From Synechococcus sp. CBW1004 (GTDB lineage: Bacteria > Cyanobacteriota > Cyanobacteriia > PCC-6307 > Cyanobiaceae): a stretch of 64,000 nt of DNA. The notes under the pieces are model-generated. The model saw nothing but the letters and a program-made list of their open reading frames with translations, made no database searches and was not told the origin of the DNA. The stretch covers positions 868,001-932,000 of the forward strand of contig NZ_CP060397.1 in assembly GCF_015840715.1 (NCBI RefSeq). Reading direction: 5' to 3'. Below, in pieces: positions 8,715 through 30,063 of the stretch (position 1 is its first letter; each line of letters begins with the position of its first letter). The position numbers and the translations under genes are program-made.

Positions 8715-8814
8715 CCTGATGCGCTGCCCCGGAGAGCCATGCAGATCCTGCATCAGGTGCCCAGGCCCTGCAGCCCAGTGGCAGGCTGGGCCGTTGCCTG
8801 GTTCGCCTCCCCTG

Positions 8815-8922: not shown

Positions 8923-9023
8923 GGGACTCCTGAAAAAGATTCTCGGCCCATCGGCGCCGAATTCGTCCGTTTGCTTCGCGTTAATCAGGCCGGCAAGCGC
9001 CGTGACATCAAGTGGGCCAGATC

Positions 9024-9832: not shown

Positions 9833-9896
9833 TGATCCGCGTCAACCCCCTTGGCCGTTTCGCGACAACCAAGTTGGCCGGTGAGAGTCCCTGATC

Positions 9897-9930
9897 GCCC
9901 CCAGGTTGTCGCCGGCGACAACCTGGGGGC
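9897..9930. repeat. Perfect 34-bp palindrome in the IS21-like end
   Basis: Two 17-base arms, GCCCCCAGGTTGTCGCC and its exact complement, meet with no loop. An identical copy is at 38037-38070. Half-sites of the type GTTGTCG or CGACAAC recur around it (9871, 10008, 10134 regions). It is probably a transposase-binding or regulatory site of this IS rather than a terminator. Confidence 0.7.
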
Positions 9931-10163
9931 GGCGACATGAAAACTGAGCCACCTGCCTGCCAGAAGTCCGATCAGCACTGGCTTTTCGTGTTCGGCAGCA
10001 GACGACAACCCGGTTGGCCGGTACCGCTGGTGACTCTCCGCCCCAACCTCTGGCGGAGCGCACGAGCCGGCGGACCCCATAGTCCGCCGGCAGCGCGGAG
10101 CTCACCACCGGGGGCTGCGCTGATCGGCGCCAGGTTGTCGCCTCGCGTCAATGTCTCCTCGCC

Positions 10164-11219: not shown

Positions 11220-12475
11220 CAGGGCCCATTAGAAGTCTGTCCCAGTAGCCCTGGCGGGGCCTCTGCCGCAGCGGTTTGCTGGTCAGGTCTTGCCTCTCAC
11301 CGTTGGCCACGCCACTCCTGAACCCTGCTGCTGCAACCGATCTGATCAGCTTCCTCAAGGCGCTGCCCGACTGCCGCATGCGGCGCGGGGTGCGCTTCCC
11401 GCATTGGTGGATGCTGCTGGTGGCGATCCTGGCCATCCTGAGCAACCAGGGTTCGCTGATGGGGATGGAGCGATTCGCCAAGCGGCATCGCAAGACCCTC
11501 AACGAGCTGCTCGGTACCCACATCGCCAAGCCGCCGTCGGACTCGACCTTCCGGTTGCTGCTGGCTCAGCTTGATGTGGAGGGCTTTGAGAACCTGCTGC
11601 AGCAGTGGATGGCATCCCAGCCAGGCGTGACTGAGTCCGTCGAGACCCTGGTCTGCGACGGCAAGACGCTGCGGGGCTCCATCGCTGAGAACGCTTCCGG
11701 CGCAGCGCGTTTCATTGCCCAGGTGAGCCTCTACTCGAACACGCTGGGCGTGGCGATCGCCCAGAGCACCTACGCCACCGACGCCGGCGGAGAAATCGCG
11801 ACCCTGCGGCAGCTCCTCGATCGCGTGGAGCTGGAAGGACTTTTGGTTCAAGCGGACGCGCTGCATGCGAACCGCCCTTTTTCCTCTACCTCGAGCAGCG
11901 TGGCGCCGACTTCATGATCGCGGTCAAGCACAGTCGCCGCAAGGGGTTTCGGATGATCCGCGATCGGCTGACCTACGGCCGGCAGGTGCCGTTTCAGACC
12001 AGCAAGCGAGAACGCAAACGCGGCCGTGATCTCACCTGGACCCTGCGCGGCATGCCGGCTCCCCCGTGGGTAGTGGAGAACTGGCCAGGCAGCGCCACGA
12101 TCCTGGCGGTCCGCTGCAAGGGCATCCGCGAGGGCGAGCCCATCGATGAGACCCATTACTACGTCACGAGTCTCAGGACAACGGCGCTGGCTCTGCTGCA
12201 GCACGTCCGCGACCGCTGGTCCATCGAGAATTCCTGGCACTGGCCCCGCGACACCCAGCTCAGGGAAGACGCGCATCGCTACCGCGAGTCCAATGGCGTT
12301 CGCATCCTGGCCACGCTCCGCAGCCTGGCGATGAATGCCCTGCGCCTGGGTGACTTCTGGTCCATCACCGAGGGCCTTGCCGCTCTGGCCCATGACGTCA
12401 GGGGACTTCTGGCACTGCTGGGTTGGCGAGAACCGGCTCAGACACTCAGTTCGGCTTGACTTCTAATGAGCCCTG
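11220..12475 (+). mobile_element. ISAs1-family insertion sequence, 1256 bp, 10-bp target duplication
   Basis: The ends are CAGGGCCCATTAGAAGTC and, inverted, CAGGGCTCATTAGAAGTC (one mismatch). Both sides carry GCCGTGACAT (11210-11219 and 12476-12485), a 10-bp duplication that fits the family's 8-10 bp. It inserted into the type-A element between its end and its transposase gene, and is the most recent event in this nest. Confidence 0.92.
11276..12459 (+). pseudogene. ISAs1-family transposase with frameshift
   Basis: Residues 1-205 read from 11276 (FLKALPDCRMRRGVRFPHWW, LVCDGKTLRGS, AGGEIATLRQLLD, LLVQADALHANRPF). The rest reads in another frame to 12459 (FMIAVKHSRRKGF, THYYVTSL, VRDRWSIENSWHWPRD, NALRL). 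The shift lies in the T run near 11878-11882, where one more T would restore a continuous 390-residue protein. Family members normally have one frame, so it is inactive or a base-call error. Catalytic DG, D and E motifs are all present. Confidence 0.85.
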
Positions 12476-12500
12476 GCCGTGACATCAAGTGGGCCAGATC

Positions 12501-14051
12501 TCAAAAGTCTGGCTTGCAGATGACCGCAGGAGCTCTGATCGCTGACCAGGCCATAAGAAAGCTGTAGATCCACCCAAAAAGAAGGGCAAAAAAGAGGCGC
12601 AGCAGCCTCAAGACCTTTTCCGCGCACATCACGACAAAGGCCATTGAGATGGAGGATTCGGCACCAGCTGGTAGACGAACCATGATCAGATCCAGGGAAT
12701 ACTTGCGCTTTCCATATCCAAAGACGCCTTCCACTTCATTGCGTCGAGCTTGATCAGATCGGAGCTGCTGCTTGTGTGCAGTGGTGACATCAGGATCCTT
12801 GGGCGGGCGGCCCAATCGCTTGCCGGAGAGGCGAATACCGTTCCTCATGCAGAAATGCCTATTCTTGGCCGTGATATAAATCCGGTCGGCGCAGATGCGC
12901 TCTGGGTAAGATCCTGTATCCAGCTTGTATTTTTCCGCCTGAGCGATCAGGTCTTCTCCTTCGTTGTAGGGGTTCCAGCTGATGCGGTGCAAGAACGGAA
13001 AGCCGTTTTGAACCGAAACACTGATTTTGGCACCAAACTCCACCGCAGCACGTGCTTTGCCTCGCACCATTGGGCGGATATGGGTCTGCACAAGATTCAC
13101 CAGGCGGTCTGGAATGCTGTTGGTCTGAGAGGCGAGCAGAAGGCCCTGCTGCCGCTCCAACTCGCTGCAGGCCAACAACTTCTGCCACCAATGCCTCTTG
13201 AGCTCAGAAAGCCTTGCCCCACAGCCGATCAGAGCATCAATGGCTTTGAGATTCTGCCGCACATATCCAAGCTGATGTTTAATGGCAGCCTTCACTTTTC
13301 GGCGGCGTGGCCGTTTTTGCTTCGCCACTCTCAGGAAATGAGCACGAGCAAGGCCACGGTCGTAGCGAGGTCGATGTCTCCTGAATCCCGATGACTGACT
13401 GCACAGATCATCAATGACTCGCTCGGTCGTTGTGCGAGCCTCGCTGAGGAGCCTGAGGTCTCTGGGATAGGTAATGTCGGCAGGAGTGCAACTAGCATCA
13501 ATCGTGAGAGTGCCCCAATTCTTTCCTTCTGGCCAGTCAGCAGGCTTGATCAACGCATCAAGTTCCAGCTGAGCGCCTCCTCCTCTGGAATCAGGATCAT
13601 CATGGTCGTCATCGTCTGCTACCTGAGCAAGTGCTTCCAGAAGGATCTCTTTGCCGCGCTGCACCACCAGCTCATTGATACGGCGCAGATCCTCGTCAGA
13701 AAAGCGTTTGCGAAAATGCACCATCATCGAGGCATCAAACGGTGCCTTGGCTGTGTAACCCGCAAAGCCGAGAAAGAACTGCATATAGGCGTTCTCTCTG
13801 ATCTGATGGACAGTCTCTTCGTCGGTTAACCCCAACTTCTGTTTGATGTAGAGAGCACCAAAGGCCATCCGCACTGATTTGGCTGGAGCGCCAATTGTGG
13901 CGTTGAATTGAGGGGCATAGGCTTGTTCCAGCTCATCCCATGGCATCAGCCCCTCCAGTTGAACCCAGCGATTCTCGGGATCAAGTGTGCCGCCAAATGG
14001 CAGGTGGAACTCCTTGATTGAGATCTGACCGTTATTGTGCCTCCGGTACAT
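12501..14051 (-). CDS. Type-A IS5-like transposase
   Basis: 516 residues, the full length for this group. The N-terminal region is DUF772-like (FHLPFGGTLDPENRW, MPWDELEQAYAPQF, AFGALYIKQKLGLTDEETV). The DDE core has LTIDASCTPADI (first Asp), ICADRIYITAKNR (second Asp) and NEVEGVFGYGKRKYSL (Glu). It looks functional. Types B and C in this window are relatives with the same architecture and clearly different sequence. Confidence 0.9.
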   Translation of the reverse strand: MYRRHNNGQISIKEFHLPFGGTLDPENRWVQLEGLMPWDELEQAYAPQFNATIGAPAKSVRMAFGALYIKQKLGLTDEETVHQIRENAYMQFFLGFAGYTAKAPFDASMMVHFRKRFSDEDLRRINELVVQRGKEILLEALAQVADDDDHDDPDSRGGGAQLELDALIKPADWPEGKNWGTLTIDASCTPADITYPRDLRLLSEARTTTERVIDDLCSQSSGFRRHRPRYDRGLARAHFLRVAKQKRPRRRKVKAAIKHQLGYVRQNLKAIDALIGCGARLSELKRHWWQKLLACSELERQQGLLLASQTNSIPDRLVNLVQTHIRPMVRGKARAAVEFGAKISVSVQNGFPFLHRISWNPYNEGEDLIAQAEKYKLDTGSYPERICADRIYITAKNRHFCMRNGIRLSGKRLGRPPKDPDVTTAHKQQLRSDQARRNEVEGVFGYGKRKYSLDLIMVRLPAGAESSISMAFVVMCAEKVLRLLRLFFALLFGWIYSFLMAWSAIRAPAVICKPDF

Positions 14052-17061: not shown

Positions 17062-18779
17062 GGGCTTCCTGAAAAAGTGAGAGGGAGGTCAAGCTGTCAA
17101 AGAGCCGAGCCTGAGTGAGGCGGAGACTGGCCGTTCATGTGGGGCTGAGATGAGTGCTCACACACACGAATGGTGACCCCTTGCCTGGTTGATTGCACAG
17201 GAGAAGTTGCAGCCAGGACGCAAAAAGAACAAAAAGAAGCTCCAGCAGCTTCTCGAGGTTCATCACCAGAATATTGAGTGCGATGGTTGAACCCTGGGTC
17301 ACAGCGAGCTTCTCACGTATCAGGCCCAGTCCAAAACGCCTCTTGCCTTGGCCGATCTTGCCTTCAACGGCATTCCTTTGGCGCTGGTCATCGATGAACT
17401 GCTGCTTCTCGGCAGCCACCAATTCAGGATCGTTCTTCGGCCGTCCAAGTCGCGGGCCACTCAAACGGATTCCATGGCGCTGGCAGAAAGCACGGTTCGA
17501 TCTTGTGCGGTAGATCTGGTCAGCACAAATCACCTTCGGATAGTGACCATGGCGACGCCGATAGGAAATCGCTTGACCCTTGAGGTCTTCTCCTTCGTTG
17601 TAGGGGTCATAACTCAGGCGATCGAGGAAGGTGAATCCCTCGCCGGTGACAGAGATTGAGATCTTGGCTCCGAACTCAACATTGCAACGAGCTTTCCCGC
17701 GGACAATCGGCCTGATATGTGCCTGGCAGAGGCTGACGATGCGATCTGGGATACTTCTGCTGTCTGCGTGATAGAGAATGGTCTGCTGGCGGACCAGCTC
17801 GCTGATCACCAGCAACTTCCGGTAGATATGCCGTCCGGCGGCCAGAAGGCAGCCACCACAGGCGATCAGGGCGTCAACGCTTGCCAGATTCCGCTTGAGG
17901 TGACCAAGCTGCTGTTTGATCGCTTTGCGGATCTTGCTGATCCTTGGCTTCTTCTTTTTGGCCACTGCAAGAAACTGCCGCCTCGCCTTTTTGCGGTGTG
18001 TACGCGGCTTGTGGCCAAAGCGTTCCCTGACGTGGGGATGCATCGCATCAATCAGGATCTCAGTCATCTCCCTGGCTTCATTGAGCAGGGATAGATCGGT
18101 GGGATGACGGATATCCACCGGCGCACAGGTGGCATCGATCAAGAGTGAACCCTGATTCGGCTGCTTCTGCGAGGATGGCTTTGGTTGGTCGGGAGGACTG
18201 GTCGATCCGCCACTGCTGTCGTCATCCGCTGGGCCCTGGGGATCTGATGAGCGAATCATTTTCAGGCCGCGGCGCACAATCCGTTCATTGCAGTCATTCA
18301 CAATCGCTTCTGGCAAGCGCTTGCGGAAATACACCATCATCGATGGATCAAACGGCGCCGAAGACTGGAACGCTTCCAAGCCAATGAAAAACTGGAGATA
18401 GGGGTTTTCCTTGATCTGCTCCACCAGTTCTTCATCCGTGAGCCCGAGACGGGCCTTGATGATCAAGGCACCCAGTGCCATGCGAAAGGGTTTTGCCGGT
18501 GCTCCAAAGCCCTTACAGAATTGCGCCGCGTAGTCGTCCTCCAGTTCATCCCACGGAATGAGCTCAGCCAGCTTGATCCACCGATTATCACCGGAGAGTT
18601 TGCCGCCAAACGGCAGGAAGAAGTTTTCGAACGAGAGCTGATAACGATGCTCACGCCGATACATGTGGAAACCTCCGGACCGCTTTTGGGCTCAGATCGG
18701 CCCGTTCACGCACATTTTACCGTCAGAAACTGCCGAGATCCATTGCACTGCAGTGGATCTGCCCTTATTCAGGAAGCCC
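17062..18779 (-). mobile_element. Type-C IS5-like element, copy 1, 1718 bp, flanks not matching
   Basis: The ends are GGGCTTCCTGAA inverted repeats, and the length equals copy 2 (39047-40764). The 6-bp flanks are TAGCTG on the left and CAAGCA on the right. Lack of a duplication means that one flank was replaced by a later deletion or recombination, so DNA on its two sides was not originally contiguous. Confidence 0.9.
17135..18664 (-). CDS. Type-C IS5-like transposase, copy 1
   Basis: 509 residues, complete. The motifs are FFLPFGGKLSGDNRWIKL, LLIDATCAPVDIRHPTDL, ICADQIYRTRSNRAF and NAVEGKIGQGKRRFGLGL, giving the D, D and E residues. Copy 2 differs at two noted positions (RRGLKM against RHGLKM, YRRRHG against YWRRHG). 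Confidence 0.93.
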   Translation of the reverse strand: MYRREHRYQLSFENFFLPFGGKLSGDNRWIKLAELIPWDELEDDYAAQFCKGFGAPAKPFRMALGALIIKARLGLTDEELVEQIKENPYLQFFIGLEAFQSSAPFDPSMMVYFRKRLPEAIVNDCNERIVRRGLKMIRSSDPQGPADDDSSGGSTSPPDQPKPSSQKQPNQGSLLIDATCAPVDIRHPTDLSLLNEAREMTEILIDAMHPHVRERFGHKPRTHRKKARRQFLAVAKKKKPRISKIRKAIKQQLGHLKRNLASVDALIACGGCLLAAGRHIYRKLLVISELVRQQTILYHADSRSIPDRIVSLCQAHIRPIVRGKARCNVEFGAKISISVTGEGFTFLDRLSYDPYNEGEDLKGQAISYRRRHGHYPKVICADQIYRTRSNRAFCQRHGIRLSGPRLGRPKNDPELVAAEKQQFIDDQRQRNAVEGKIGQGKRRFGLGLIREKLAVTQGSTIALNILVMNLEKLLELLFVLFASWLQLLLCNQPGKGSPFVCVSTHLSPT

Positions 18780-18830
18780 CAAGCAGGTGATGGCACTGCC
18801 GGCGTGCATTCGGGACTGTAATTGTCAGGT

Positions 18831-18941
18831 GGGCACCTCGAAAAATGGGCATTGCCGCGACGATCGGCCAAGGTCGACGCAGGCCAGGATATGAGTCTCA
18901 GTCGGTGCTGCCAGGGAAAACTGGTATTTTTCGAGGTGCCC
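18831..18941. mobile_element. 111-bp MITE-like element with 16-bp inverted repeats
   Basis: GGGCACCTCGAAAAAT at 18831-18846 is exactly inverted at 18926-18941. Both sides carry AGGT (18827-18830, 18942-18945). It has no coding capacity. It ends 10 bases from the stop codon of the glycosyltransferase gene and marks one edge of the low-GC gene cluster. A parent transposase is not in the window. Confidence 0.75.
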
Positions 18942-18950
18942 AGGTGCCAA

Positions 18951-20180
18951 TCACAGCATCTTGGTGATTGTCTCCACAGCATTGTAGACAGATACGACGC
19001 GGCTCATCGCCGCGCACCTGGCCTTGAGCGCTTCATCATGAAGGGCGCGGAGGATCGCAGTCTCCAGATCGTGAAGCTTTGGCGCCGCAATAGCCACGCC
19101 TGCCGCCACCAGCCTGGCAGCGTTGTCAAACTGGTCGAAATCCAGCGGATGGACCACCGCTGGGATGCCGTGTTTCAAACAGTGGTTCATCACACCAGAA
19201 CCCGCATGATGCACGACGAGGTCGTAGCGCGGCAGATAGTCCAAGTAGGACACAAAGGCATACTCGTGAAAGTTGCCCTCCTGCCGCGCGAAAGCTGCCA
19301 CCGAGTTGCCGTGTGTGAAATGAAACACGATCCCCGGATGAAGCACTGCCATGCTGCGGATCGCATTTCTCATCCCGTCCTTTGCATGCATCAGATGCGT
19401 TCCGATGCTGATGAGAACACAAGGCCTGCCATCGTCGCGAAAAGCCGGCAGGGGGCCTTTATATGGTGGTATGTAAAGAACTGGACCCACGAACTGGACA
19501 GCTTTCGGCCAGGTGCAGTCAAACTCAATCTCCTTCGCACCGAGGGCGAGGATGCAGTGCGGTGAATAAACCGCCTCACTGCCATCGGAACGATAGATGC
19601 CGCAAAAGCCGATCCTTTGGAAAACACGCCAGAATAGTAACCAAATAATGTGCTTAAACCCCTTCGTCGTCCACCGCATTGCGACATGCATCAACCGCTG
19701 CAATGCCGTTCGGGCAGGTCTCTGCCCGTTGAAATATGCAGGTGGTCCATTAGGAGTTTCGATCACGCTGGGTGATGCCGTCACCGTCCACCAAGGAATG
19801 CCATGACGAATCGCCGTGAATCCGGCGACAGGTACGACAAAGTCTGCAATGACAAGATCCGGTTTCTCTTCCCGATAGATCCTCTCAAGCTCCTCCTGAA
19901 GCCTCCCCATCAGCCCCACATTTTCGGTCAACTGACCATAGAGCCGCAGCGGATTATTTTTCACTGCATGACCGGGTTCACTGATCCCTATCACAACATG
20001 CTCGTGCGCCGCCATGATCTCACGGGCCCGCAAATTGGCTTTTTCTGCGGCCTTCACACCCTTTGGTGTGCTTAGAACGAGCACATCTGCCACGCTGGCA
20101 ATTCCCTTCCCTATGCCCAACAGCGGATTCAAGTGTCCGCTAAATGGCGGGCCGATTAGTAGGATTTTTTTCCTCCTCAT
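18951..20180 (-). CDS. GT1-type glycosyltransferase (UGT/MGT-like)
   Basis: 409 residues. The N-terminal GPPFSGHLNPLLGIGKGIA is the acceptor-side start of GT-B enzymes such as macrolide and sterol glycosyltransferases. The C-terminal donor motif is at about 324-350 (HHAGSGVMNHCLKHGIPAVV then HPLDFDQFDNA). It would transfer a nucleotide-sugar residue to a lipophilic acceptor in the cytoplasm. It is the last gene of a seven-gene operon; its ATG overlaps the previous stop by 4 bases. Confidence 0.88.
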   Translation of the reverse strand: MRRKKILLIGPPFSGHLNPLLGIGKGIASVADVLVLSTPKGVKAAEKANLRAREIMAAHEHVVIGISEPGHAVKNNPLRLYGQLTENVGLMGRLQEELERIYREEKPDLVIADFVVPVAGFTAIRHGIPWWTVTASPSVIETPNGPPAYFNGQRPARTALQRLMHVAMRWTTKGFKHIIWLLFWRVFQRIGFCGIYRSDGSEAVYSPHCILALGAKEIEFDCTWPKAVQFVGPVLYIPPYKGPLPAFRDDGRPCVLISIGTHLMHAKDGMRNAIRSMAVLHPGIVFHFTHGNSVAAFARQEGNFHEYAFVSYLDYLPRYDLVVHHAGSGVMNHCLKHGIPAVVHPLDFDQFDNAARLVAAGVAIAAPKLHDLETAILRALHDEALKARCAAMSRVVSVYNAVETITKML

Positions 20181-20734
20181 GGCAGCACAACGCTTCGGTA
20201 GAATGCCTCAAATAATCGTAGTGTCTCCACCTTCTCCAGGTAGTCCATGTGTGCGCAATCAATGCGTGCATCCACCTCACGGTGAAACGTTTGTGAAATG
20301 AGATCCAAGTCTCCTTGCACCAGAAAGTATGACGCAACATCCGGCTGACGCCTTGAAACCGGACCATACGCAAATACATGTAGCCTCCTCCGCGTCTCTA
20401 CCGGTAGCTTGAGGTTGTTAAGCAACTCCAAACCACAACTTCCTGCCAGAAGAATGACCGCGTCTATTCCTTCAAGTCTTACCACTACCTCGGTGCGGTG
20501 CTTTGCGCGAAAAGTCGCAGTCTGCGAGCAGAGATATTGGCTGACGTTGTTGATACTTGCAGAAAGGAGTTGTAATCGCTCGGGGAACGGAAAGGTCTCC
20601 TTCCATGGAAAATTGTAGCGCAACCAGTTGGCCTGCGGTACGATGCTGAGGCGCTGAAATGCCCTCTGCTGCTGTGATAGACCAGTGCATCCCCGCACAC
20701 TATGTCCGGTGATGAAGCCAACGATATGATTCAT
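20177..20734 (-). CDS. Probable small alpha/beta-hydrolase-fold protein
   Basis: 185 residues. I do not recognise the family. The order of elements fits an alpha/beta hydrolase: VILLAGSCGLELL as nucleophile elbow (Ser99 in A-G-S-C-G), FLVQGDLDLIS with an acid at 142 or 144, and DCAHMDYLE with His162. ATGA overlaps on both sides show tight coupling to the two glycosyltransferases. A lipase, thioesterase or decarboxylase-like role in the pathway is possible, and the AGSCG elbow is unusual. The call is inference. Confidence 0.5.
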   Translation of the reverse strand: MNHIVGFITGHSVRGCTGLSQQQRAFQRLSIVPQANWLRYNFPWKETFPFPERLQLLSASINNVSQYLCSQTATFRAKHRTEVVVRLEGIDAVILLAGSCGLELLNNLKLPVETRRRLHVFAYGPVSRRQPDVASYFLVQGDLDLISQTFHREVDARIDCAHMDYLEKVETLRLFEAFYRSVVLP

Positions 20735-22008
20735 ACCGCCGAGAAGTCATTCGTGTCACGCACCCAATAGCGCCGCATCCGCCAACTAATCGTCCGGCTA
20801 AAGAGAGCATGGCTGAGGTGCAACGGTTGGATGAGTTCGGAGAACAGAGACATTAGAGGTTGGTGCCGGCTCACGCAAAAAAACATTCTCTGGATTGACG
20901 CTAGGGACGATCTGCGAAGCAACATCACTATGAGCAGTAGGCAAGAGGTGGGTTCCCCCCTGATCCACATCAAGGTCAACAACGCCAGTGACGAAAGCAG
21001 CACAGTAATCAATGGCGAACGCAAGCTGCTAACCAAGATGAAATAGAAGCAAAGGATGATCAACAGGATCTGCCAGCTAACCACAGCCAAAAGCAAGAAG
21101 CTAAAACCAAGCAACATTGGTGGCAGCCCATGTAGCACAAAGATGAGTAACTGAACAGGAATGCTTTGCCCTTTCAGTAATAACAGCGTGAAAACATTCC
21201 AACGATGCATCATTTGAAAGTAATGCTTCATATCTCGCACTCCCGTCTGCACATATAGCGGTGCTTGTGACTGGTTGATGCTGCCTCCAAGCTTCAAAAC
21301 GAGAGTAGCAAGCGCAAAATCGTCAGTTAGCTCATGCAGGATGGGATGGAAGTGCTGAATCCGATCCAGTTCCTCTCTCCGCATCACGTAACCCATACCA
21401 TTTAATGTGAAAGGAGACAGCAAACGCGATGTGCCGAGGTATGTGAAGATGGAGTTATTGTTCACGAACTGCCCCAGCAGACATGAGGCGAGATTTTGGC
21501 CATTCTGATAACACGGCAACCCTGTTGCGACGGTCGACGTCCTTGCGGCTTCAACGAGCGCTGAGGCGCTAGCGGCAGACAAGCTCGTGTCATCATCAAT
21601 TACCGCAAAAAAAGGTGTCTGAACGAGACGAGAAGCGATCTGGAGCTTCCATAACTTTGGGTTTGTCGCGTCTGGGCAGGGCGGACAAAGTACAACTCTG
21701 ATTTGTGGCCGCTTCTGCTTGCCAGCAATGCGCAGTGCCTCCGCATCATCTTCATCGATAAGCCAGAGGAAGTTCTGTCCGGGCAAATTGTCGAGATTTG
21801 CCTCTAGACGCGACTCCAGCAGCGGATCACCACTCAAAATCGCCTGATTGATGGTGAGCGTTCCCTCTGGTAACGACTCCAAGGGCAAGGGCGGCTTCGA
21901 ATTGGCATAAGACAATGCCAGCCATCGACGCCAAATAAGAGAGACAGTATAAAGAAGCAGGATAATAAGTAGAGACATGGTCATGATTAGAGTTGATGCT
22001 TTTGCCAT
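20731..22008 (-). CDS. Membrane glycosyltransferase, GT2/GT21 ceramide-glucosyltransferase-like
   Basis: 425 residues. There is an N-terminal membrane helix (about 8-26). The catalytic domain has FFAVIDDDTSL (DxD, about 138-140), LTDDFALA (about 228-234) and YFQMMHRW, matching the (Q/R)xxRW motif (265-270) of processive and ceramide glycosyltransferases. Several C-terminal membrane helices follow (about 280-345). It probably glycosylates a membrane lipid. It overlaps the upstream gene by 22 bases. Confidence 0.85.
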   Translation of the reverse strand: MAKASTLIMTMSLLIILLLYTVSLIWRRWLALSYANSKPPLPLESLPEGTLTINQAILSGDPLLESRLEANLDNLPGQNFLWLIDEDDAEALRIAGKQKRPQIRVVLCPPCPDATNPKLWKLQIASRLVQTPFFAVIDDDTSLSAASASALVEAARTSTVATGLPCYQNGQNLASCLLGQFVNNNSIFTYLGTSRLLSPFTLNGMGYVMRREELDRIQHFHPILHELTDDFALATLVLKLGGSINQSQAPLYVQTGVRDMKHYFQMMHRWNVFTLLLLKGQSIPVQLLIFVLHGLPPMLLGFSFLLLAVVSWQILLIILCFYFILVSSLRSPLITVLLSSLALLTLMWIRGEPTSCLLLIVMLLRRSSLASIQRMFFCVSRHQPLMSLFSELIQPLHLSHALFSRTISWRMRRYWVRDTNDFSAV

Positions 22009-22943
22009 TCCACAAATCGCCTGACACCCTCCTCAAGGCTCACGCTTGGAGGCCCAAGCACACGAAGGCATTGACTAGCATCAAAGGTCTTGGTGCTGCT
22101 TAGCACCTCGACCCCGAAACGCGTGATCGGCGGCTCCCGCCAGGGCATCAACAGACCAAAGATCTTCTCCAGCAGCCACGCCACACGCATGGCCTTTGCC
22201 CTAGGAATGGCCCTTGTGACAGCGGGCAGATCGAGGCGTGCAAACACATCAGCAATGAAGGACTGTATCTCCACTGGCTGATGATTGGTAAGGTTAAAGT
22301 CCCCTGTCACTGCCGGATTCAGCGCGGCAGCCAGCATGTAGTCACACAGTGTATCGATGTAGATCAAATCACCGACGGCAGGTGGACCAGGCCGAGTGAT
22401 CGAAATCATGCGCCCCTGCTGCGCGGCCCTGAGCAACCGTGGAAAAAGCACGGTGTCCCGCGGACCGAACACTGCGCGGGGCCTCAGCACACAGCAATCA
22501 CCGGAATAGGCGCACGCGACCCGCTCGCCTTCGAATTTCGTTTGCGCATACGCATTCACAAACGTCGGGCCAATTGGCGAGTACTCCGTGAGCCCGAACT
22601 GGTCGCCCTTTCGATAGAACACAGAGCTGGAAGAAATGTAGATCAGCTTGCGCACCCTTTGCATTTCGCAAAACTCGACCACATGTTTCGTGGCTAGTAC
22701 GTTCTGCTGCCGATACTGTTTTAAACTCCCCCAGGGTGACGAACGTGCAGCCGCATGGATCACCACATCCGGCGACCAGTCAAGCCGCAGCGGCTTCGTC
22801 AGGTCCATACGGATGTAGTCAGGCAAATCCATCGGGCGACGTCCTAGGCCGCGAATTTCCACATCCTCACGTTTCTCATGCTGCATGCAGAAGGAACTTC
22901 CGACAAAGCCAGATGCACCGGTGATGAGGATTCTTGTTTTCAT
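21987..22943 (-). CDS. NAD(P)-dependent epimerase/dehydratase-like reductase
   Basis: 318 residues. The Rossmann motif GASGFVG is at 9-15, a Ser cluster ISSSSVF at about 103-109, and the catalytic YAQTK at 132-136, with a typical GDLIYIDTLCDYM later. This is the extended short-chain-dehydrogenase class that includes OleD-type 3-hydroxy-acid reductases and sugar epimerases. Because the operon begins with a KAS III, reduction of a beta-keto acid or ketone is as likely as a sugar role. The start ATG overlaps the previous TGA (ATGA). Confidence 0.85.
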   Translation of the reverse strand: MKTRILITGASGFVGSSFCMQHEKREDVEIRGLGRRPMDLPDYIRMDLTKPLRLDWSPDVVIHAAARSSPWGSLKQYRQQNVLATKHVVEFCEMQRVRKLIYISSSSVFYRKGDQFGLTEYSPIGPTFVNAYAQTKFEGERVACAYSGDCCVLRPRAVFGPRDTVLFPRLLRAAQQGRMISITRPGPPAVGDLIYIDTLCDYMLAAALNPAVTGDFNLTNHQPVEIQSFIADVFARLDLPAVTRAIPRAKAMRVAWLLEKIFGLLMPWREPPITRFGVEVLSSTKTFDASQCLRVLGPPSVSLEEGVRRFVEWQKHQL

Positions 22944-24166
22944 ACTGGCTTCGTGATGCAGCAAATACGTTTCTCTTTCTCTGACAGTGGCTGAGCACTC
23001 CAGGGCTGAAAATCAAACGTGGGTCGTTCTAGTCGTAAACTATCGATGAGCGACTCAAGTGACGACTGCACAGCATTACTATTCCCATTAAGCAGTTGGA
23101 CTTGCCAGCGCTGACCGTGCTGCTCAATGCGGTAACGCTCTACTGGATGCGTGTAGAGCACTTGCCGCAGCACATCGGGAAATACCGGTGAGAGGGCGCC
23201 GCTGGCATCCTGCAACCACAAAACCTCCTCGGCGCGGCCTTCAATTTGCTTCAGCGTCATCGTCTTACGTCCGCACGGACACGGCGTAGGGTCGAGCCGT
23301 AAAATGTCATCTAGTCTATGACGCACGAACCACTGTGTCTCTCGCGAGAAATCTGTAATGAGCGGATGAAAGCGCTCGTGCTCGTCATCCAGCCACTGGG
23401 GCTCGATATCCAACGATTCTTCGTTCAAATGTATACGACCCTTTGAGCATGTGCAGCCGAGAAATCCCTCCGCAGCTTGGTAAATCTGTCCAACGGCTAC
23501 GCCGAAGGCCTCTTCAATCGCCGCACTGTCCTTCTCATCCAGTACTTCCGCTACGGAGATGACCTGCTTAGGCCGTACGCGTGCGCTCCGAGCCAGTTCG
23601 GCCAATACTGTCGCCGGAGCAACCAGCACATGGGGCCGATAGTTGTTGAGCCGGCCAACCAGTTCATTGATGGGCTGAGTGAGATCAAAGTACTCAAGCT
23701 CCACTCGGAAGCTTGAAAGTGTGCCATATAAATTGCTGTTAGCACGCAGAAAAAATGCGATGCGTAACGGCTTGGCGAAGACGTTGCAGATTTGTAACAA
23801 TGAGCTCGTGTTTAACATCCGCGCCAGCATCTGCCCCGCCCAGCGGCAGCGGTCCGCGCGCCCAACCAGAAAAACCAGCCGTGCACCCGAAGTGCCAGAT
23901 GACAATCCCACCGTGACGCCGCCCGGAAGTTCGGGCTTGAAATTACGCTCACACTCCGCCCTCAGTGCCACCGCCGTGGCCTGCTCTAGGGTGATCCCAT
24001 GGCGGTTCAGCGATGAGAAATGCTCGAGATAGGAACTTTTCGTCATCACGTCTGCAAAATGCGGTGCTTTGGCTAGAAAACGCCGCAACCGTTTCTCTCG
24101 ATTCCGCGGCGCACGCAACCAGCGTGTGCTGATGAAGTGCCAAAGTATAAGGAAACGTTCAACCAC
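22940..24166 (-). CDS. Adenylate-forming enzyme related to PaaK/coenzyme F390 synthetase
   Basis: 408 residues from the GTG at 24166, chosen because GGAGG lies 7 bases upstream. An in-frame ATG at 24190 would overlap the previous gene more. The motifs are GLSSGTSGARLVF (SSGTSG at 89-94, ATP loop), IYQAAEGFLGCTC, ITDFSRETQWFVRHRLDD and a PaaK-like CPCGR (296-300). Such enzymes activate carboxylates as acyl-adenylates. No CoA-binding or carrier domain is evident. The substrate is probably the acid made by the KAS III and reductase. Confidence 0.82.
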   Translation of the reverse strand: MVERFLILWHFISTRWLRAPRNREKRLRRFLAKAPHFADVMTKSSYLEHFSSLNRHGITLEQATAVALRAECERNFKPELPGGVTVGLSSGTSGARLVFLVGRADRCRWAGQMLARMLNTSSLLQICNVFAKPLRIAFFLRANSNLYGTLSSFRVELEYFDLTQPINELVGRLNNYRPHVLVAPATVLAELARSARVRPKQVISVAEVLDEKDSAAIEEAFGVAVGQIYQAAEGFLGCTCSKGRIHLNEESLDIEPQWLDDEHERFHPLITDFSRETQWFVRHRLDDILRLDPTPCPCGRKTMTLKQIEGRAEEVLWLQDASGALSPVFPDVLRQVLYTHPVERYRIEQHGQRWQVQLLNGNSNAVQSSLESLIDSLRLERPTFDFQPWSAQPLSEKEKRICCITKPV

Positions 24167-25028
24167 GCTGGATCCTCCGGCTGCCCCCATATTGACGCCA
24201 AGTCGTGGTGCAGTGTGACGGAATGACCAGCGGCGCATGTGGTGAAAGATACAGGGCACGCAGTTTTGCGAAGGTGGCGTCGTAGGCCTCGCCATCATCA
24301 AAAACTAGATATGCCAGCGGTGAGGGCTTCTTGCCGCGAATCAGACCTTCGATTTTCCAGCAGGAATCCCCAATGAGGAAAATCGGCTTATCCGCATAAA
24401 AAGCCAGGCCGAGCTGGGAAGCCGTATGCCCCGGCAGATCAACTCCGAGCAAACTGCCATCGTGCAGCAAATCGTGCATCGCTTCAAAGGGTTTCCACGC
24501 GTCTGGCAGAGGTATGAGTGGCATCATCTCGGCATATTGGAGGCGCTTTTCCATATCTTGCGGCAGCAACTCGCGCATGTAAGCTCGACGCAGGCGTCCT
24601 AGGCGGTTTTTTTGCTTACACAGCGTATGTTCGGAGCGGGTGGCGATGAAACTTGCCTTCGGAAAGTCACGTAGCCCCGCCACGTGATCTGCATGGAAGT
24701 GCGAAATGATGATCGTCTCAATATCTGAGGCGCGGATGCCGCGCGATTCAAGTTGTGCGAGCAGTTCCTCCTCTGGCGGTGGCAGCGTCACCGGAGTGAT
24801 CATGCGATAGAGACACTCTGGAAAGCGTTTCGTGGCTTCGTGGAAGTGCCGCGAGTAGCCTGTGTCGTAAAGCATTAGCCCGCGCTGTGGATGCTCGATG
24901 AGCCCGACCAGCGCGGGAAAATCGATTGCACGCCGACCACCACTCCTGAGTGCCATGCACTCTGGGTGTTGGCAATGGCCGACCTTTAACAGATCAAACT
25001 TTACGCGGATGGCAAACGGTTTGTTCAT
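24159..25028 (-). CDS. Metallo-beta-lactamase-fold hydrolase
   Basis: 289 residues. The zinc-site motif SHFHADH is at 109-115, with further ligands at His201 (LPGHTASQLG) and Asp221 (FLIGDSCW) and a final PSHC. The pattern resembles N-acyl-homoserine lactonases and related lactone hydrolases. In the operon it could open a beta-lactone or cut a thioester. It starts 1 base after the KAS III stop and overlaps the next gene. Confidence 0.85.
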   Translation of the reverse strand: MNKPFAIRVKFDLLKVGHCQHPECMALRSGGRRAIDFPALVGLIEHPQRGLMLYDTGYSRHFHEATKRFPECLYRMITPVTLPPPEEELLAQLESRGIRASDIETIIISHFHADHVAGLRDFPKASFIATRSEHTLCKQKNRLGRLRRAYMRELLPQDMEKRLQYAEMMPLIPLPDAWKPFEAMHDLLHDGSLLGVDLPGHTASQLGLAFYADKPIFLIGDSCWKIEGLIRGKKPSPLAYLVFDDGEAYDATFAKLRALYLSPHAPLVIPSHCTTTWRQYGGSRRIQRG

Positions 25029-25029
25029 C

Positions 25030-26019
25030 TCAGTAGGTGAAAACAATACCGCCGATGGAGACCCCCGCGCCCGTGCCGAGCAACAGCGCTTTTTGCCCCC
25101 GCTGCAAACCATACAAGTGAATCCCAAAATGCAGCGCCGTGGGTAGTGACGCTCCAACTTGGTTGCCAAACTCCCCGAACACATCGACCATGCGCCCGTC
25201 ATCAAAGCCGAGTAACTTCGCAACATGATCCAGTGCCTGACGGCTCGCTTGATGCGGGATCATCAGCGCCAAGTCCGAGCTCTTCACACCGGCCTCTGCC
25301 AGCAGGGTCTCGACGAATCCAGGCAGCTCCCGCGCTGCCAGCGCATAGAGCTGCCGGCCTCGCATTTCAAACAATGCTTCAGAGTGCTCCGGACAGCCGC
25401 GCCGGTGATAACGCGACCCACCGGAGCGAATCTGGCAAAACTCCACACCCTCTGGCAGCGTTACGCTGCGCACAGCATGAATGCGGGACGTGCCGTCCCC
25501 ACGGCGCAGCACCACCGCCGCCGCACCATCACCAAAGATTCCGTTCTCACGAAGATTTGTGTAAGTCGTCGTGAAGGTCGAGATATCTGCCGAAACGATC
25601 ACCACGTTCGCATAGCGCCCTGTCGAGATGGCGTTGCTCATGAGGTCTAGCGCCTGCAAAAAGGACAAGCAGCTTGCCCCCACGTCTAGTGTCGACACAC
25701 GGTGCGTGAATTCCTTCAACTCAGCGAGAACCATTGCCGCGTTGTAAGGCAGGGCTTGATCCATCGTGGCCGAGGCGCAGACGAGGCAGTCAAGTTCGCT
25801 CCAGCCCATGCCCGCATCCGCCAAGGCCGAACCAACAGCCTGCGCTGCGAGCTGCGCGGCCGTTTCAAGCACAGCCGTATGTCGCTTTGCGACTCCTGTA
25901 ACACGCAATACCTCTCCCGTGGGCAAGCCCAGCTCCGCATCCAGTTCAGCTGCTGTCAGCACTCTCTCGGGTAGGGCAACTCCTGTTCCGGCGATGCGAA
26001 CTAGGTATTCAGAATTCAT
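25030..26019 (-). CDS. Beta-ketoacyl synthase III family protein (FabH/OleA-like)
   Basis: 329 residues from the ATG at 26019. The catalytic triad is visible: Cys117 in DVGASCLSF, His256 in LMIPHQASRQALDH and Asn286 in FGEFGNQVGASLP, and the C-terminus reads GTGAGVSIGGIVF. KAS III enzymes make C-C bonds by Claisen condensation of acyl thioesters. As the first gene of a glycosyltransferase operon it is unlikely to be the housekeeping FabH and more likely a specialised OleA-like or natural-product enzyme. The open frame continues 14 codons upstream without a better start. Confidence 0.88.
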   Translation of the reverse strand: MNSEYLVRIAGTGVALPERVLTAAELDAELGLPTGEVLRVTGVAKRHTAVLETAAQLAAQAVGSALADAGMGWSELDCLVCASATMDQALPYNAAMVLAELKEFTHRVSTLDVGASCLSFLQALDLMSNAISTGRYANVVIVSADISTFTTTYTNLRENGIFGDGAAAVVLRRGDGTSRIHAVRSVTLPEGVEFCQIRSGGSRYHRRGCPEHSEALFEMRGRQLYALAARELPGFVETLLAEAGVKSSDLALMIPHQASRQALDHVAKLLGFDDGRMVDVFGEFGNQVGASLPTALHFGIHLYGLQRGQKALLLGTGAGVSIGGIVFTY

Positions 26020-26292: not shown

Positions 26293-26502
26293 TCAGCGCG
26301 CTTGCGCGTTAGCTGAGAGAGCGTCCTGATTCCGTTGATGCTCAACCCAGGCGTTCTGCAGGTCGGTGCGGGTGACCCGGTAGCCCAGGTGGCGGGCAGC
26401 CTGCAGTAGCTGCTGACGACTGCGGCAGCGGCGCAGGGTGTCGCGCAGTTCGGCACTGGCTTCCGCGTCGCTGACCAATCGCTCCAGTTCCGACCAGCTC
26501 AT
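26293..26502 (-). CDS. Nif11-like domain protein
   Basis: 69 residues from the ATG at 26502. The sequence SELERLVSDAEASAELRDTL, then QLLQAARHLGYRVTRTDL, matches the helical Nif11 pattern (residues and spacing around the AxxxGY block). Nif11 domains serve as leader regions of RiPP precursors or stand alone. Here there is no Gly-Gly cleavage site or cysteine/serine-rich core, so a precursor role is not supported. Confidence 0.7.
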   Translation of the reverse strand: MSWSELERLVSDAEASAELRDTLRRCRSRQQLLQAARHLGYRVTRTDLQNAWVEHQRNQDALSANAQAR

Positions 26503-26586
26503 GCCCGTGCCTCGGTTGGCTGCACGTTGCCGCGGGTAGGGGCAGTGCACCACGTTCCGCCGGGCACATTCAGGCAAGCGCCGGAG

Positions 26587-27835
26587 TCACAGACGCCGTG
26601 GCCAAAGCAGCCCTGAGCTGGGCCTGGTGTTCACGTCGGGCTCATCGGCGCCACTGCCGCCACTACCGGAACCGCTGAGCAGCGGCCCCTGCTGCGGGTG
26701 CTGGCGGGCGCCTGCTGCGCTCATTGGCGGGTAGTTACGGATGAAATCCGGCGTCGCGGTCACCATCTGCAGACCCCAATGGGACAGGCTCTGGGGCGGG
26801 AGGCCGGTGATGAAGTGGAGCTCGTTGCACTCCCGCCACTGGGTCAGGGCGGTTGCTGATGTCCAGGGGCTGGCCTGGCTGTGGCTGGTACCGCTGGGTA
26901 GCCACAGCCAGACGTCGTAGGCGAGGGAACGCTGGCCCAGCTGCAGCATCACCCCATCGGGTCTGGTCACCTTGCCGAAATGGGTGCTGGCGCCGCGGAT
27001 GGTGGTGGAGCCGATGAACAGCGGGGCCGGCAGCTGGATGAGAGGCGGCGGGGTGTCGAGCAGGCCCTGGGGCTCGAGGATGAAGTCGTAGTGGCCGAGG
27101 CTGATGCCGCTGCGCAGTTGGTGGCCGTTGCTGTGCAGGCTCGCGTTCAGGGCAGAAGGCAGTCCCCCAAAGCGGTTGCCGGAATAGCCGTGCAGCAACA
27201 CCGTCTCGTAGGGCTGCCGGCTGGTCCTGGGGAAGACGGTGATTGAGCACCCCATCCCGATGTGCCCGGGCTCTTGTAGAGGGCATGGCAGCAATCGCGG
27301 TGCAGCTCGTCGCTGCCGCCGCTGGTCTTGAGAGCCCAGCAGAAGAATTCCCGGCCCGGTGTGGTGTCCTGCGCGATCAGCAGGATCGTGCCGATGGCGG
27401 TCGCGCCGGAGAGGGTGCTGTCGACGTAGGCGAGGCCCGTCGACCAGCCGGTGGAGTTGTTGTAGGAGCCGTAGCCGCCGTTGCTTGTGGTGTCTGAGAA
27501 GGTGCTGGCCTTGGCACTCCCGAAGATCGCACTGCTGCTCGATTGGCTCTCCCCTTGGGCGGTGGTGCTTTCGGTGAGGAACCAGAGGTGGCCGGGTTCC
27601 ACGGGATGGCCCAGCTGCCAGGTGTAGCCCCAGCGGTTGGCGGTGGCATCGGCATGGGAGCGGATCACCGAGAGGGGCGTGCTGGCATTGCCGGGCAGGG
27701 CGTTGACGGCGGCTGCAAAGGCGCGGAAGGCCTCGTCGAGCTGCATGCCAATCCCTGCCGGATCCCTGCCGGATCCTTGCTGGTCCACTTCCAGGTCCCA
27801 GGGGCAAAGGACTGGCAGAACACCTGATAGGTCAT
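26587..27835 (-). pseudogene. Phage-structural-like hypothetical protein with two frameshifts
   Basis: It starts MTYQVFCQSFAPGTWKWTS at 27835 and must change frame twice to stay open: near 27757-27780, where the 11-bp unit CCGGATCCCTG is duplicated in tandem, and near 27250-27285 (HALYKSPG to HIGMGCSITVFPR). The restored protein would be about 415 residues, Ser/Thr/Gly-rich, beta-like, with a Gly-rich tail, as in tail or baseplate proteins. No firm family match. It overlaps the upstream gene by ATGA. Confidence 0.5.
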
Positions 27836-28140
27836 GGGGTTGTGCCTCCCTGGAGGGCAGGTGCGTCCTTGGTGAGCAGCAGCAGGCCGTGGCCGCCGAT
27901 CGCAAACCACTCGCTGCCATCGGGCGCCTTGAAGTAGCTCATCGCCGCACTGCTGAGATTCACCACCGCGAAATCAGGCGGAAGAAGCAGGGGTTCCCAG
28001 AACTGGGCCGGTTCGTTGGCGACCTCGTAGTAGCTCCAGTCGGTGGTGGCGATCACCAGCTCGGCGGGCCGGCTGATCCGCACCACCGTGAGCAGCCCAT
28101 CGCGCAGCAGGCCGCGGGAGCCGGACGGCTGGCCGGAGCG
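27832..28140 (-). pseudogene. 3' fragment of a phage-like hypothetical gene
   Basis: About 100 residues remain (TVVRISRPAELVIATTDWSY, LLLPPDFAVVNLSSAAMSYF, GSEWFAIGGHGLLLLTKD). The 5' part is replaced by IstA sequence from about 28142 reading the other way. It overlaps the following gene by 4 bases, so both came from one operon, probably of a prophage or phage-derived element. Function unknown. Confidence 0.5.
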
Positions 28141-28145
28141 CACGT

Positions 28146-28637
28146 TCCAGCTCACCACTGGCTCGAGACCCTGGAGGAGGGCTTCCGCCACTGGGGCGGG
28201 GTGCCGCAGGAGGTGCTGGTGGACAACGCCCGTGCGCTGGTGAGCCAGCACGATCCGGAGCGGCAGATCCTGGTCTTTGCCGAGCGGCTGGAGGAGTTCT
28301 CCAGCTACTGGGGGTTCAAACCTCGCGCCTGCCGGCCGTATCGGGCGCGGACGAAAGGCAAGGACGAGCGCGGGGTGGCGTACGTCAAGAGGAATGCGAT
28401 CGCCGGGCGGGAGTTCAGCAGCTGGGCGGAGTTGGAGGCACACCTGGCGCGCTGGACCCGCGAGGTGGCGTGTCCGCCGACAATGAAGTTGGCCGATCAC
28501 GAAAACCATGAGCAAACACCGAACCAGCCGCCGGCCAAGCCAAGGCGGAACGACTCCGAGAACAGCCGCCCCCCAGGTGTCAGGGGTGGCTCAGTTTTCG
28601 ATGTCGGAAGTGGCTCAGTTTTCAGTGTCGCTTGACA
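28146..28637 (+). mobile_element. IS21-like remnant: IstA core fragment and right end
   Basis: From about 28146 to 28470 the frame encodes HHWLETLEEGFRHWGGVPQE, VLVDNARALV (catalytic Asp), WGFKPRACRPYRARTKGKDE (Glu) and WAELEAHLARW of IstA. It then jumps to the element end, with istB deleted. The end carries two direct repeats, GTGGCTCAGTTTTCGATGTCGG (28586-28607) and a near copy at 28610-28630, and finishes with the inverted TGTCAAGCGACA at 28637. It lies in the 3' end of hsdM. Confidence 0.8.
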
Positions 28638-30063
28638 CCTTGTAGCGGTTGAGGCTGAGGTCGTAGCCCTGGGCGCTGATCTCCTCCTTGGGCACGCAGA
28701 AGCTCTGAGCGGTGCGCGCTCGCCCCCGTTCTGAGTCCTTGCGATGGCGCCAGCGGTCGAGGCAGTCGGGCAGGTTGTTCTTCTCGTGCTCGTTTTCGCC
28801 AAGGGCTTCCTTGGGTGTCGGGCCGAGTTTCTCAAGCGGCAGCAAGGGGTTGCGCTTGTCGTCGAGGCTCCAGCCGTCGGCGGTCATGTCGTAGAACCAC
28901 ACCTGATCGGTGCCGCCCCGGCCGGTCTTGGTGAAGAGCAAGATCGCTGTGCTCACACCGGCATAGGGGCGGAACACACCGCTCGGCAGCGACACCACGC
29001 CTTCGAGGAAATGGTCTTCCACCAGGGTGCGGCGCAGTTCCTTATGGGCCTTGCTTGAGCCGAACAGCACGCCATCAGGCACGATCACCGCCGCTCTGCC
29101 GCCGGGCCTGAGCAGCTGCAGAAACAACGCCATGAACAGCAGCTCGGTCTTCTTCGTCTTCACCACCCGCTGCAGCCGGGCGCTGGTGCTCTCGTAGTCG
29201 AGTGAGCCGGCGAACGGCGGGTTGGCTAGGATCAGGGTGTATTTGTTCTCCTCGCTGGCGCTGTCTTCGGAGAGCGAATCGCGGTAGCTGACATCGGGGT
29301 TCTCCACCCCATGCAGCAGCATGTTCATCGCGCCGATGCGCAGCATCGTGTTGTCGAAATCGAAACCATGGAAGAGGCCATGGTTGAAGTGCTCGCGCAG
29401 ATCCGGATCGCTGAGCACCTCCGGGTGGTGTTCACGCAGGTATTCGCCCACCGCCACCGGGAAACCGCAGGTGCCGCAGGCGGGATCCACCATCACATCG
29501 CGCGGCGTGGGCTCGGTCATCGCCACCATCAGTTCGATGATGTGGCGCGGCGTGCGGAACTGGCCGTTGGTGCCGGCGGTGGCCAGCTTGCCGAGCATGT
29601 ACTCGTAGATGTCGCCCTTGGTGTCGCGGTCCTCCATCGGCACCGCATCGAGCAGCTCCACCACCTTGGTGAGCAGCGCCGGCGTTGGGATCGTGAAGCG
29701 GGCATCACGCATGTGGGTGGCGTAGGCCGACTCCTCACCACCCAGCTCCCGCAGGAAGGGGAACACCCGCTCGCCCACTACCTGGAACATCGAGGATGGA
29801 TCACCCAGCTCCTTGAAGCGGCTCCAGCGCAGCTCGCTCCAGGGCCGCCCTTGGGGATCAGCTCCTTCCGGGAAGATGTGGCGCCGCATCGGCTGGCCCG
29901 AGCGCTGGCTGCGGCGCTCCTCCAGGGTTTCCAGCTCATCGAGCCGGCGGATGAACAGCAGGTAGGTGAGCTGCTCCAGCACCTCCAGCGGGTTGGCGAT
30001 GCCGCCGCTCCAGAAGGCATCCCAGATCCGGTCGATCTGGTTGCGCAGCTCGCCGGTGAGCAC
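28615..30063 (-). CDS. hsdM: Type I restriction-modification DNA methyltransferase subunit, C-terminus replaced by IS end
   Basis: 482 residues. The N-terminal helical domain is typical (ELRNQIDRIWDAFWSGGIAN, YLLFIRRLDELE). The SAM motif I is DPACGTCGFPVA and the N6-adenine motif IV is ILANPPFAG, followed by a partner-binding region. The last seven residues (VSSDTEN) and the stop come from the IS21 end at 28637, right after GYDLSLNRYK, so only a short C-terminal part is lost. The GTG at 30063 gives the usual MLTGELRNQ start. No hsdS or hsdR is in the window, so the enzyme is an orphan here. Confidence 0.9.
   Translation of the reverse strand: MLTGELRNQIDRIWDAFWSGGIANPLEVLEQLTYLLFIRRLDELETLEERRSQRSGQPMRRHIFPEGADPQGRPWSELRWSRFKELGDPSSMFQVVGERVFPFLRELGGEESAYATHMRDARFTIPTPALLTKVVELLDAVPMEDRDTKGDIYEYMLGKLATAGTNGQFRTPRHIIELMVAMTEPTPRDVMVDPACGTCGFPVAVGEYLREHHPEVLSDPDLREHFNHGLFHGFDFDNTMLRIGAMNMLLHGVENPDVSYRDSLSEDSASEENKYTLILANPPFAGSLDYESTSARLQRVVKTKKTELLFMALFLQLLRPGGRAAVIVPDGVLFGSSKAHKELRRTLVEDHFLEGVVSLPSGVFRPYAGVSTAILLFTKTGRGGTDQVWFYDMTADGWSLDDKRNPLLPLEKLGPTPKEALGENEHEKNNLPDCLDRWRHRKDSERGRARTAQSFCVPKEEISAQGYDLSLNRYKVSSDTEN

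Follow-up and report, generated by a model that had tools for sequence, protein, structure and literature searches.

The closest described counterparts of the seven-gene operon examined here, which occupies positions 18951-26019 of a 64,000-nucleotide stretch of the Synechococcus sp. CBW1004 genome (contig NZ_CP060397.1, positions 868,001 to 932,000; hereafter the window), each resemble it in part. OleABCD likewise combines a condensing enzyme, an OleD-like short-chain dehydrogenase/reductase (SDR), an adenylate-forming enzyme and an acyl-chain hydrolase, whereas the window ketosynthase is without the glutamate of OleA, the ligase is of the PaaK/F390 type (TIGR02304), a lactonase-fold metallo-hydrolase and two glycosyltransferases are added, and the 185-residue hydrolase p185 has a minimal lipase-like fold. 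The nearest matches of the ligase and of p185 are TIGR02304/PaaK enzymes and LipA-like lipases, respectively. Membership of OleABCD was rejected on the absent glutamate and on a reductase score of 146 of the 580 bits set for OleD; the analogy with Ole systems drawn in an earlier reading of this DNA (the original prediction) stands for the reductase, whose best family is OleD, is not borne out for the ketosynthase, and is weakened by the PaaK-like ligase and the minimal-lipase fold. MxnB and CorB, of myxopyronin and corallopyronin synthesis, lie on the same side of the split from FabH as the window ketosynthase, share its cysteine motif ASCLSF and also have a hydrophobic residue where OleA and PpyS have glutamate; they serve modular polyketide synthase (PKS) lines, whereas the window enzyme sits in a compact operon with a reductase, a lactonase-fold enzyme, a ligase and glycosyltransferases. 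The lactonases AiiA, AiiB and GcL share fold and dinuclear-metal motif with the window metallo-hydrolase, which differs in scoring far under the equivalog cut-offs and in its place in a biosynthetic operon. With HpnI-like GT21 and EryCIII/MGT GT1 enzymes the window glycosyltransferases share family domains only, the HpnI and MGT cut-offs not being reached. TIGR02304, of which the window ligase is a member, owes its name to resemblance to coenzyme F390 synthetase, and the same annotation name is found in Paraburkholderia, Bacilli, Escherichia coli and others; no assigned function for the family was found.

We read the locus, tentatively and at a little under an even chance, as one functional operon derived from Verrucomicrobia that makes a glycosylated acyl or ketide product, most likely a glycolipid, by condensation of two acyl units. 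The seven genes are as follows, from upstream to downstream.

25030-26019, minus strand: KAS III-type ketosynthase gene (KAS3), from the open reading frame list and profile matches
24159-25028, minus strand: metallo-hydrolase gene (MBL), 1-base gap to KAS3
end 22940, start GTG 24166 or ATG 24190, minus strand: gene for the F390-related adenylate-forming enzyme
ATG 22943 to 21987, minus strand: SDR reductase gene, 4-base overlap with the F390-related gene
start ATG 21984 or 22008, end 20731, minus strand: GT21 membrane glycosyltransferase gene
20177-20734, minus strand: p185 gene (185-aa protein), 4-base overlap with the GT21 gene
18951-20180, minus strand: GT1 glycosyltransferase gene, 4-base overlap with the p185 gene

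All seven reading frames were found intact where the original prediction had placed them, on one strand and joined by 4-base overlaps or with hardly a gap between them; for the F390-related and GT21 genes, whose exact starts are not settled, the alternative start codons are kept. As that prediction had also held, no characterised cluster with exactly this set was found, and neither a product nor a name or description for it, among the papers listed by searches of an open-access library aimed at the set (subscription papers and outside preprints were not covered). In passages of PMC5467263, PMC2649909 and PMC9823363, "F390 synthetase" figures in annotation lists or in a ladderane proposal. The operon is built from known enzyme families, and its core can already be seen in public annotation, where an "F390 synthetase-related protein" appears with its neighbours.

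A four-gene core and its tailoring sets

At least 559 relatives of the adenylate-forming enzyme were confirmed in the genome collection, and the best 80 of these, which are the most window-like and not a random sample, were analysed, with core genes called from tblastn matches (E 1e-6) within 7 kb of the F390-related gene. KAS3, SDR, MBL and F390-related genes occur together on one strand in 71 of the 80 loci, in the orders KAS3-SDR-MBL-F390 (42), KAS3-MBL-F390-SDR (15) and SDR-MBL-F390-KAS3 (14), and three of the nine misses (L058, L065 and L069) reach a contig end. This neighbourhood comparison, which the original prediction had proposed as a check, yielded no locus with a known product. Eight of 56 matching plasmid records were examined, and all but one (L010) carry the core. 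Of 5,426 complete E. coli genomes, 672 carry the core together with PAP2, a sterol-desaturase-family protein and an acyl-CoA desaturase, and in 671 of these the match spans 80% or more of the 6.9-kb query; in L011 this cluster (3185-10066) sits between narI and purU. The best model for the sterol-desaturase-family protein is the ornithine-lipid hydroxylase OlsE, at 66.6 of 475 bits.

The genes that accompany the core fall into several sets. Set I, in proteobacteria and Bacilli, comprises ATP-grasp and GNAT proteins, often with a Rieske protein (ATP-grasp in 43/80), and set II comprises PAP2, hydroxylase and desaturase (hydroxylase in 3/80) and is carried by E. coli and Burkholderia, both from the plasmid collection, and by Chromobacterium, Aquitalea and Herbaspirillum. 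Set III, that of the window, consists of GT21 (13/80), p185 (11/80) and GT1. In streptococci (set IV) a GT1 gene adjoins the core, with an iron alcohol dehydrogenase in some, and in the actinobacterial loci L073, L074, L083 and L086 (set V) a P450 match lies nearby and there is no MBL match, L074 having ATP-grasp and GNAT matches too. Sets I (including Rieske) and II flank a single core in Aquitalea aquatica (L087). In the other loci the core is accompanied by no match to any bait gene used. All seven genes in the order of the window recur in nine of the 80 loci (L014, L019, L020, L022, L031 of Undibacterium squillarum, L032, L047, L049 and L055) and in L118 outside the 80. The four-gene core is widespread and carries exchangeable tailoring sets, and the set of seven is not unique to the window.

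The F390 tree has 97 rows; identical rows and rows of fewer than 280 residues were excluded, and 16 named loci are omitted (pieces from the window's own genome, stubs replaced by L120-L128, and weak matches). On this tree the GT21 label changes 5 times, compared with a shuffled mean of 16.0, gains and losses being indistinguishable, and its carriers are scattered over a verrucomicrobial/acidobacterial group, two cyanobacteria (L123 and L124) and a Fusobacterium (L013). L125 is labelled "other", though the GT21 set is present on a different contig of its genome (G319); since L125 is sister to the GT21-labelled L124, the count should not rise. p185 was tallied in whole genomes by scoring up to 8 or 9 first-look candidates per genome, which gives lower bounds: at least 3 of 387 genomes in the phylum of L014 and at least 1 of 347 in that of L047, centre genomes included, and at least 4 of 388 in the class of the window. 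All four p185-positive genomes of the class also belong to the 10 (of 388) whose F390 match is strong (at least 185 bits; a further 13 with matches below 40 bits were left out of the count), a co-occurrence with a chance of 2.3e-7 if genomes are treated as independent, a figure that overstates the association as two of the four share a genus. The p185 gene lies in one stretch with GT21, GT1 and SDR genes in all four, and in G319 the MBL and F390-related genes are on a different contig from that stretch.

Families and folds of the seven proteins

Profile matches over the respective cut-offs upheld the family calls of the original prediction: TIGR02304 at 314.3 bits (cut-off 251.9) for the F390-related enzyme, PF13506 at 84.3 (gathering score 21.7) for GT21, PF06722 at 39.8 (31.7) for GT1, PF00753 at 50.9 (22.7) for MBL, PF01370 at 91.6 (20.9) for SDR and PF08541 at 77.3 (26.6) for KAS3. 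The Cys/His/Asn residues predicted for KAS3 (C117/H256/N286) are invariant in six of six aligned KAS3 proteins. The best NCBIfam model for KAS3 is PRK07204 (317 bits, under its cut-off of 402), and among proteins of solved structure KAS3 comes closest to MxnB (197 bits) and CorB (187 bits), followed by the best FabH (139 bits). A ketosynthase (KS) tree of 56 rows was rooted on four FabH rows and built by a quick method with approximate likelihood ratio (SH-aLRT) support only; its cluster rows are 50 hand-picked loci, all used, and OleA and PpyS were left out. A branch with support 98 splits the cluster ketosynthases, MxnB and CorB from the four FabH rows. In these comparisons KAS3 sides with MxnB and CorB, which are chain-joining synthases, and not with FabH. 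That it is an ordinary FabH was rejected, as the original prediction had anticipated, on this split, on a score of 169.8 of the 292.1 bits needed for the curated fabH model and on the presence elsewhere in the host genome of a separate FabH-clade gene with 30% identity to KAS3.

Within the KS tree MxnB and CorB nest among the cluster rows beside L123 (support 96). The L123 ketosynthase gene (11640-12629), in a cyanobacterial cluster of the GT21 type, is the tree row nearest to them, a placement hinting that these antibiotic synthases may have originated near such cyanobacterial ketosynthases.

OleA and PpyS have a catalytic glutamate where MxnB and CorB have valine, according to Kresovic et al. 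(PMC4578411). This column was located through MxnB/CorB (V94), OleA itself not being a row of the alignment. The window KAS3 has Leu at the position, and the cluster rows have Leu, Ile or Met in 46 of 50 cases and Glu in four (L073, L074, L083 and L086), all actinobacterial, with an IEPATS context and a long branch of their own. In all four the Glu-bearing ketosynthase adjoins F390-related and SDR genes; PRK09258 is the best NCBIfam model for two of them, and the ketosynthase of L086 scores 104 bits against OleA structures vs 117 against the best FabH (PDB 3S23 is named as an OleA structure in a passage of PMC5724707). An OleA/PpyS-like ketosynthase appears to fill the KAS3 slot in these actinobacterial clusters, and the presence of another such enzyme in the same slot leads us to favour a chain-joining role.

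The HxHxDH site of MBL is complete, with H110, H112, D114, H115, H201 and D221 invariant in 12 of 12 aligned proteins, and the structures nearest to its predicted model (pLDDT 93.0) are N-acyl-homoserine lactonases (GcL: Z 28.8, root-mean-square deviation (rmsd) 2.7, 253 aligned residues). As modelled, MBL is a metallo-hydrolase with the N-acyl-homoserine-lactonase fold; against the AttM lactonase model it scores 50.5 of 390 bits, far under the equivalog cut-off. The nearest solved relatives of the F390-related enzyme are PaaK-type ligases, and its GLSxGTSG P-loop, YQxxEG motif and C-terminal Lys, which we take to be functional, are invariant in seven of seven aligned proteins. The window protein seems about 25 residues shorter at the N-terminus than its six aligned relatives. 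For the SDR, which is of the extended type and has invariant Y139 and K143, the nearest NCBIfam models are two for OleD 2-alkyl-3-oxoalkanoate reductase (146 and 144 bits), and OleD models are best for all five cluster SDRs tested, at 146-241 bits against the cut-off of 580.

The GT21 gene product is predicted to be a membrane glycosyltransferase of the ceramide-glucosyltransferase family type (27 of 310 bits against the HpnI model), and the GT1 gene product a glycosyltransferase resembling EryCIII/MGT (67 bits against the MGT model TIGR01426, under the cut-off of 260). Searches of Pfam, NCBIfam and PHROGs gave no match for p185. The best Foldseek match of its predicted model (pLDDT 95.3) is a lipase (E 4.0e-6), minimal alpha/beta-hydrolase lipases of the LipA-like kind being nearest, and in a VIA comparison the p185 model matches a lipase at Z 12.8 (rmsd 3.2 over 157 residues), the thioesterase TesA at Z 11.8 and ClbQ at 11.1. 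All 11 aligned proteins have Ser99, Asp144 and His162, in the canonical order. By its predicted structure p185 is a minimal alpha/beta hydrolase with these three residues, which agrees with the hydrolase and the Ser/Asp/His set proposed earlier.

Origin and surroundings of the operon

A TIGR02304 search of 99 genomes including that of the window, a single contig of 3.67 Mb, returned matches in three, with only that of the window over the cut-off, so that none of the 98 related genomes besides it has the marker at that level. In the F390 tree the partner of the window row is that of the Verrucomicrobiales assembly L014 (support 100); the pair lies inside a verrucomicrobial group of eight rows (support 99) and apart from the other cyanobacterial rows, and the KS tree agrees, with L014 nearest to the window (pair support 94). 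L014 is a metagenome assembly, and the same verrucomicrobial group includes a named strain, Luteolibacter marinus (L019). These placements on both trees lead us to infer transfer from Verrucomicrobia, and the operon was probably acquired from that source. Compared with L014, all seven genes have ratios of non-synonymous to synonymous substitution (dN/dS) of 0.087-0.125, indicating purifying selection, at dS of 0.94-2.28, the higher values being near saturation.

The GC content of the operon, 0.547, is lower than that of the right-hand flank (26-39 kb, 0.64-0.69), as had been claimed, but not lower than that of the left flank (13-19 kb), which is rich in transposons and has 0.54-0.57. The features bordering the operon are:

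17062-18782 (approximate), minus strand: insertion sequence with DUF772/DDE_Tnp_1_2 transposase, downstream of the operon
18816-18956, no strand: 31-nt inverted repeat, arms 87% complementary, 79 nt between arms

The insertion sequence stops about 170 bases from the GT1 gene and has 9 genome copies at 94% identity or more; a second copy within the window lies at 39047-40765. The inverted repeat overlaps the GT1 stop codon. It had been read as a miniature inverted-repeat transposable element at the 3' end of the operon, a candidate that was rejected since the repeat, although present, is single-copy in the genome, and the IS481 remnant proposed as the other border (27637-28635) has an rve match of 25.8 bits, below the cut-off of 32.6. 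Scans gave two sigma-70 promoter matches vs 4.3 in shuffled sequence, and no promoter is claimed, and four terminator matches vs 7.8. Just upstream of the operon a 94-aa open reading frame with a Nif11 domain (29.0 bits, cut-off 23.8) lies at 26293-26577 on the minus strand; Nif11 proteins include leaders of precursors of ribosomally synthesised and post-translationally modified peptides in cyanobacteria. The upstream flank also holds a type I restriction HsdM gene (28615-30063, minus strand).

Proposed pathway and alternatives

The two-unit condensation that we propose rests directly on the gene set, its conservation, selection, predicted folds and the KS clade. The MxnB/CorB-like KAS III would join two acyl units, of which one would carry an activated alpha-carbon (a malonyl or beta-ketoacyl thioester), a substrate proposed because KAS3 is without the OleA-type glutamate base. 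The OleD-like SDR would then reduce the beta-keto group, and MBL would open a lactone or thioester to release a free (2-alkyl-)3-hydroxy acid, which the F390-related enzyme would adenylate and hand to an acceptor. GT21 at the membrane and then GT1 would add sugars, with p185 acting as an editing or trimming esterase or thioesterase. The sequence of condensing, reducing, activating and glycosylating put forward in the original prediction is in this way partly supported, while the identity of the product, including its being a lipid, is inferred. We count the clustering of the core in 71 of 80 loci, the full order in nine and the low dN/dS for a functional operon; the KS clade, the OleD-best SDRs (5/5) and the lactonase fold for a chain-joining pathway; and the occurrence of GT21-p185-GT1 in separate parts of the F390 tree, together with the co-occurrence of p185 and F390 matches, for the glycosyl block belonging to it.

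Several observations weigh against this proposal. No known product was found for any cluster member. MxnB and CorB serve PKS lines, and there is no PKS or acyl carrier protein (ACP) among the seven genes; the OleD, lactonase and PRK07204 scores are all under curated cut-offs. Six clusters uncut by a contig end (the four actinobacterial loci of set V and Paenibacillus L078 and L084) have no MBL match, and L119 has matches for p185, GT21, GT1, SDR, KAS3 and MBL and none for F390. p185 is missing from two acidobacterial copies with an otherwise full set (L021 and L023), and the verrucomicrobial loci L015, L016 and L018 have the core without the glycosyl block within 7 kb, the downstream open reading frames scanned there (3+1+1) giving cytidylyltransferase-like, thioredoxin and PSD/PSCyt domain matches. 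Furthermore, the L014 operon has a GC content of 0.634 and a third-position GC (GC3) of 0.75-0.86, compared with 0.547 and 0.55-0.66 in the window, a gap that an L014-like donor alone does not explain.

The main rival to two-unit condensation is a single-chain route, which we consider unlikely, in which the F390-related ligase would prime a fatty or aryl acid, KAS III would add one malonyl unit in the manner of FabH or PqsD, MBL would act as the thioesterase and the SDR would reduce the beta-ketone, the glycosyltransferases then yielding a rhamnolipid-like 3-hydroxy acid glycoside. Such a decarboxylative malonyl condensation is in keeping with Leu at the position of the OleA/PpyS glutamate, a metallo-hydrolase, an adenylating enzyme and a KAS III are found together, and the small hydrolase with GT1 presumably recalls RhlA/RhlB; but KAS3 groups with MxnB/CorB rather than FabH, and the best match of the SDR is a 2-alkyl-3-oxo reductase. 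PqsE acts as a thioesterase in quinolone synthesis; MBL is closest to lactonases in both sequence and fold, and a PqsE-like thioesterase is not among its 26 PDB sequence matches (1e-5) or the 50 structural matches listed. It is improbable that KAS3 instead fuses two beta-ketoacyl chains into an alpha-pyrone or lactone, which MBL would form or open and the glycosyltransferases would decorate at an enol or hydroxyl: the solved relatives of KAS3, the nesting of MxnB and CorB beside L123 and the lactonase fold all fit such a route, but the SDR present in all four-gene cores would remove the keto group that a pyrone needs, and the operon is without a PKS to supply beta-ketoacyl-ACP.

Two further explanations were weighed. 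GT21 and GT1 genes with an extended SDR are common in glycan clusters, and the mobile flanks would also suit an operon whose acyl group goes onto a cell-surface polysaccharide, the glycosyltransferases building the glycan part; the seven include no polymerase, no flippase and no other glycan gene, and in many loci the core has no glycosyltransferase match, and we give this little credence. Adjacency to insertion sequences and the absence of an over-cut-off marker from the 98 related genomes could likewise point to a decaying transferred island without function in the host, which we judge least probable of all given seven open frames and the low dN/dS relative to L014, though the transfer may be more recent than most of that divergence.

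Beyond the window, it is a more doubtful possibility than the two-unit glycolipid operon itself, yet one worth stating, that the core is an unrecognised and widely transferred "Ole-like" chain-joining pathway making a common alpha-branched beta-hydroxy acyl scaffold that is differently finished. If so, finishing would be by glycosylation here, by ATP-grasp/GNAT enzymes in Pseudomonas and Bacilli and by hydroxylation and desaturation in E. coli, the core would span E. coli and Streptococcus to cyanobacteria, and the version in the window would represent, within a new class of bacterial lipids, the glycosylated form. The nine relatives that have all seven genes are small, clean operons for product discovery, and a product would help to assign the function of TIGR02304 and of the genes that accompany it in many phyla. 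Should the reading hold, a single core would make an unknown class of acyl metabolite in roughly one of every eight complete E. coli genomes, and the same class in streptococci, pseudomonads, bacilli and cyanobacteria, with tailoring genes that are modular.

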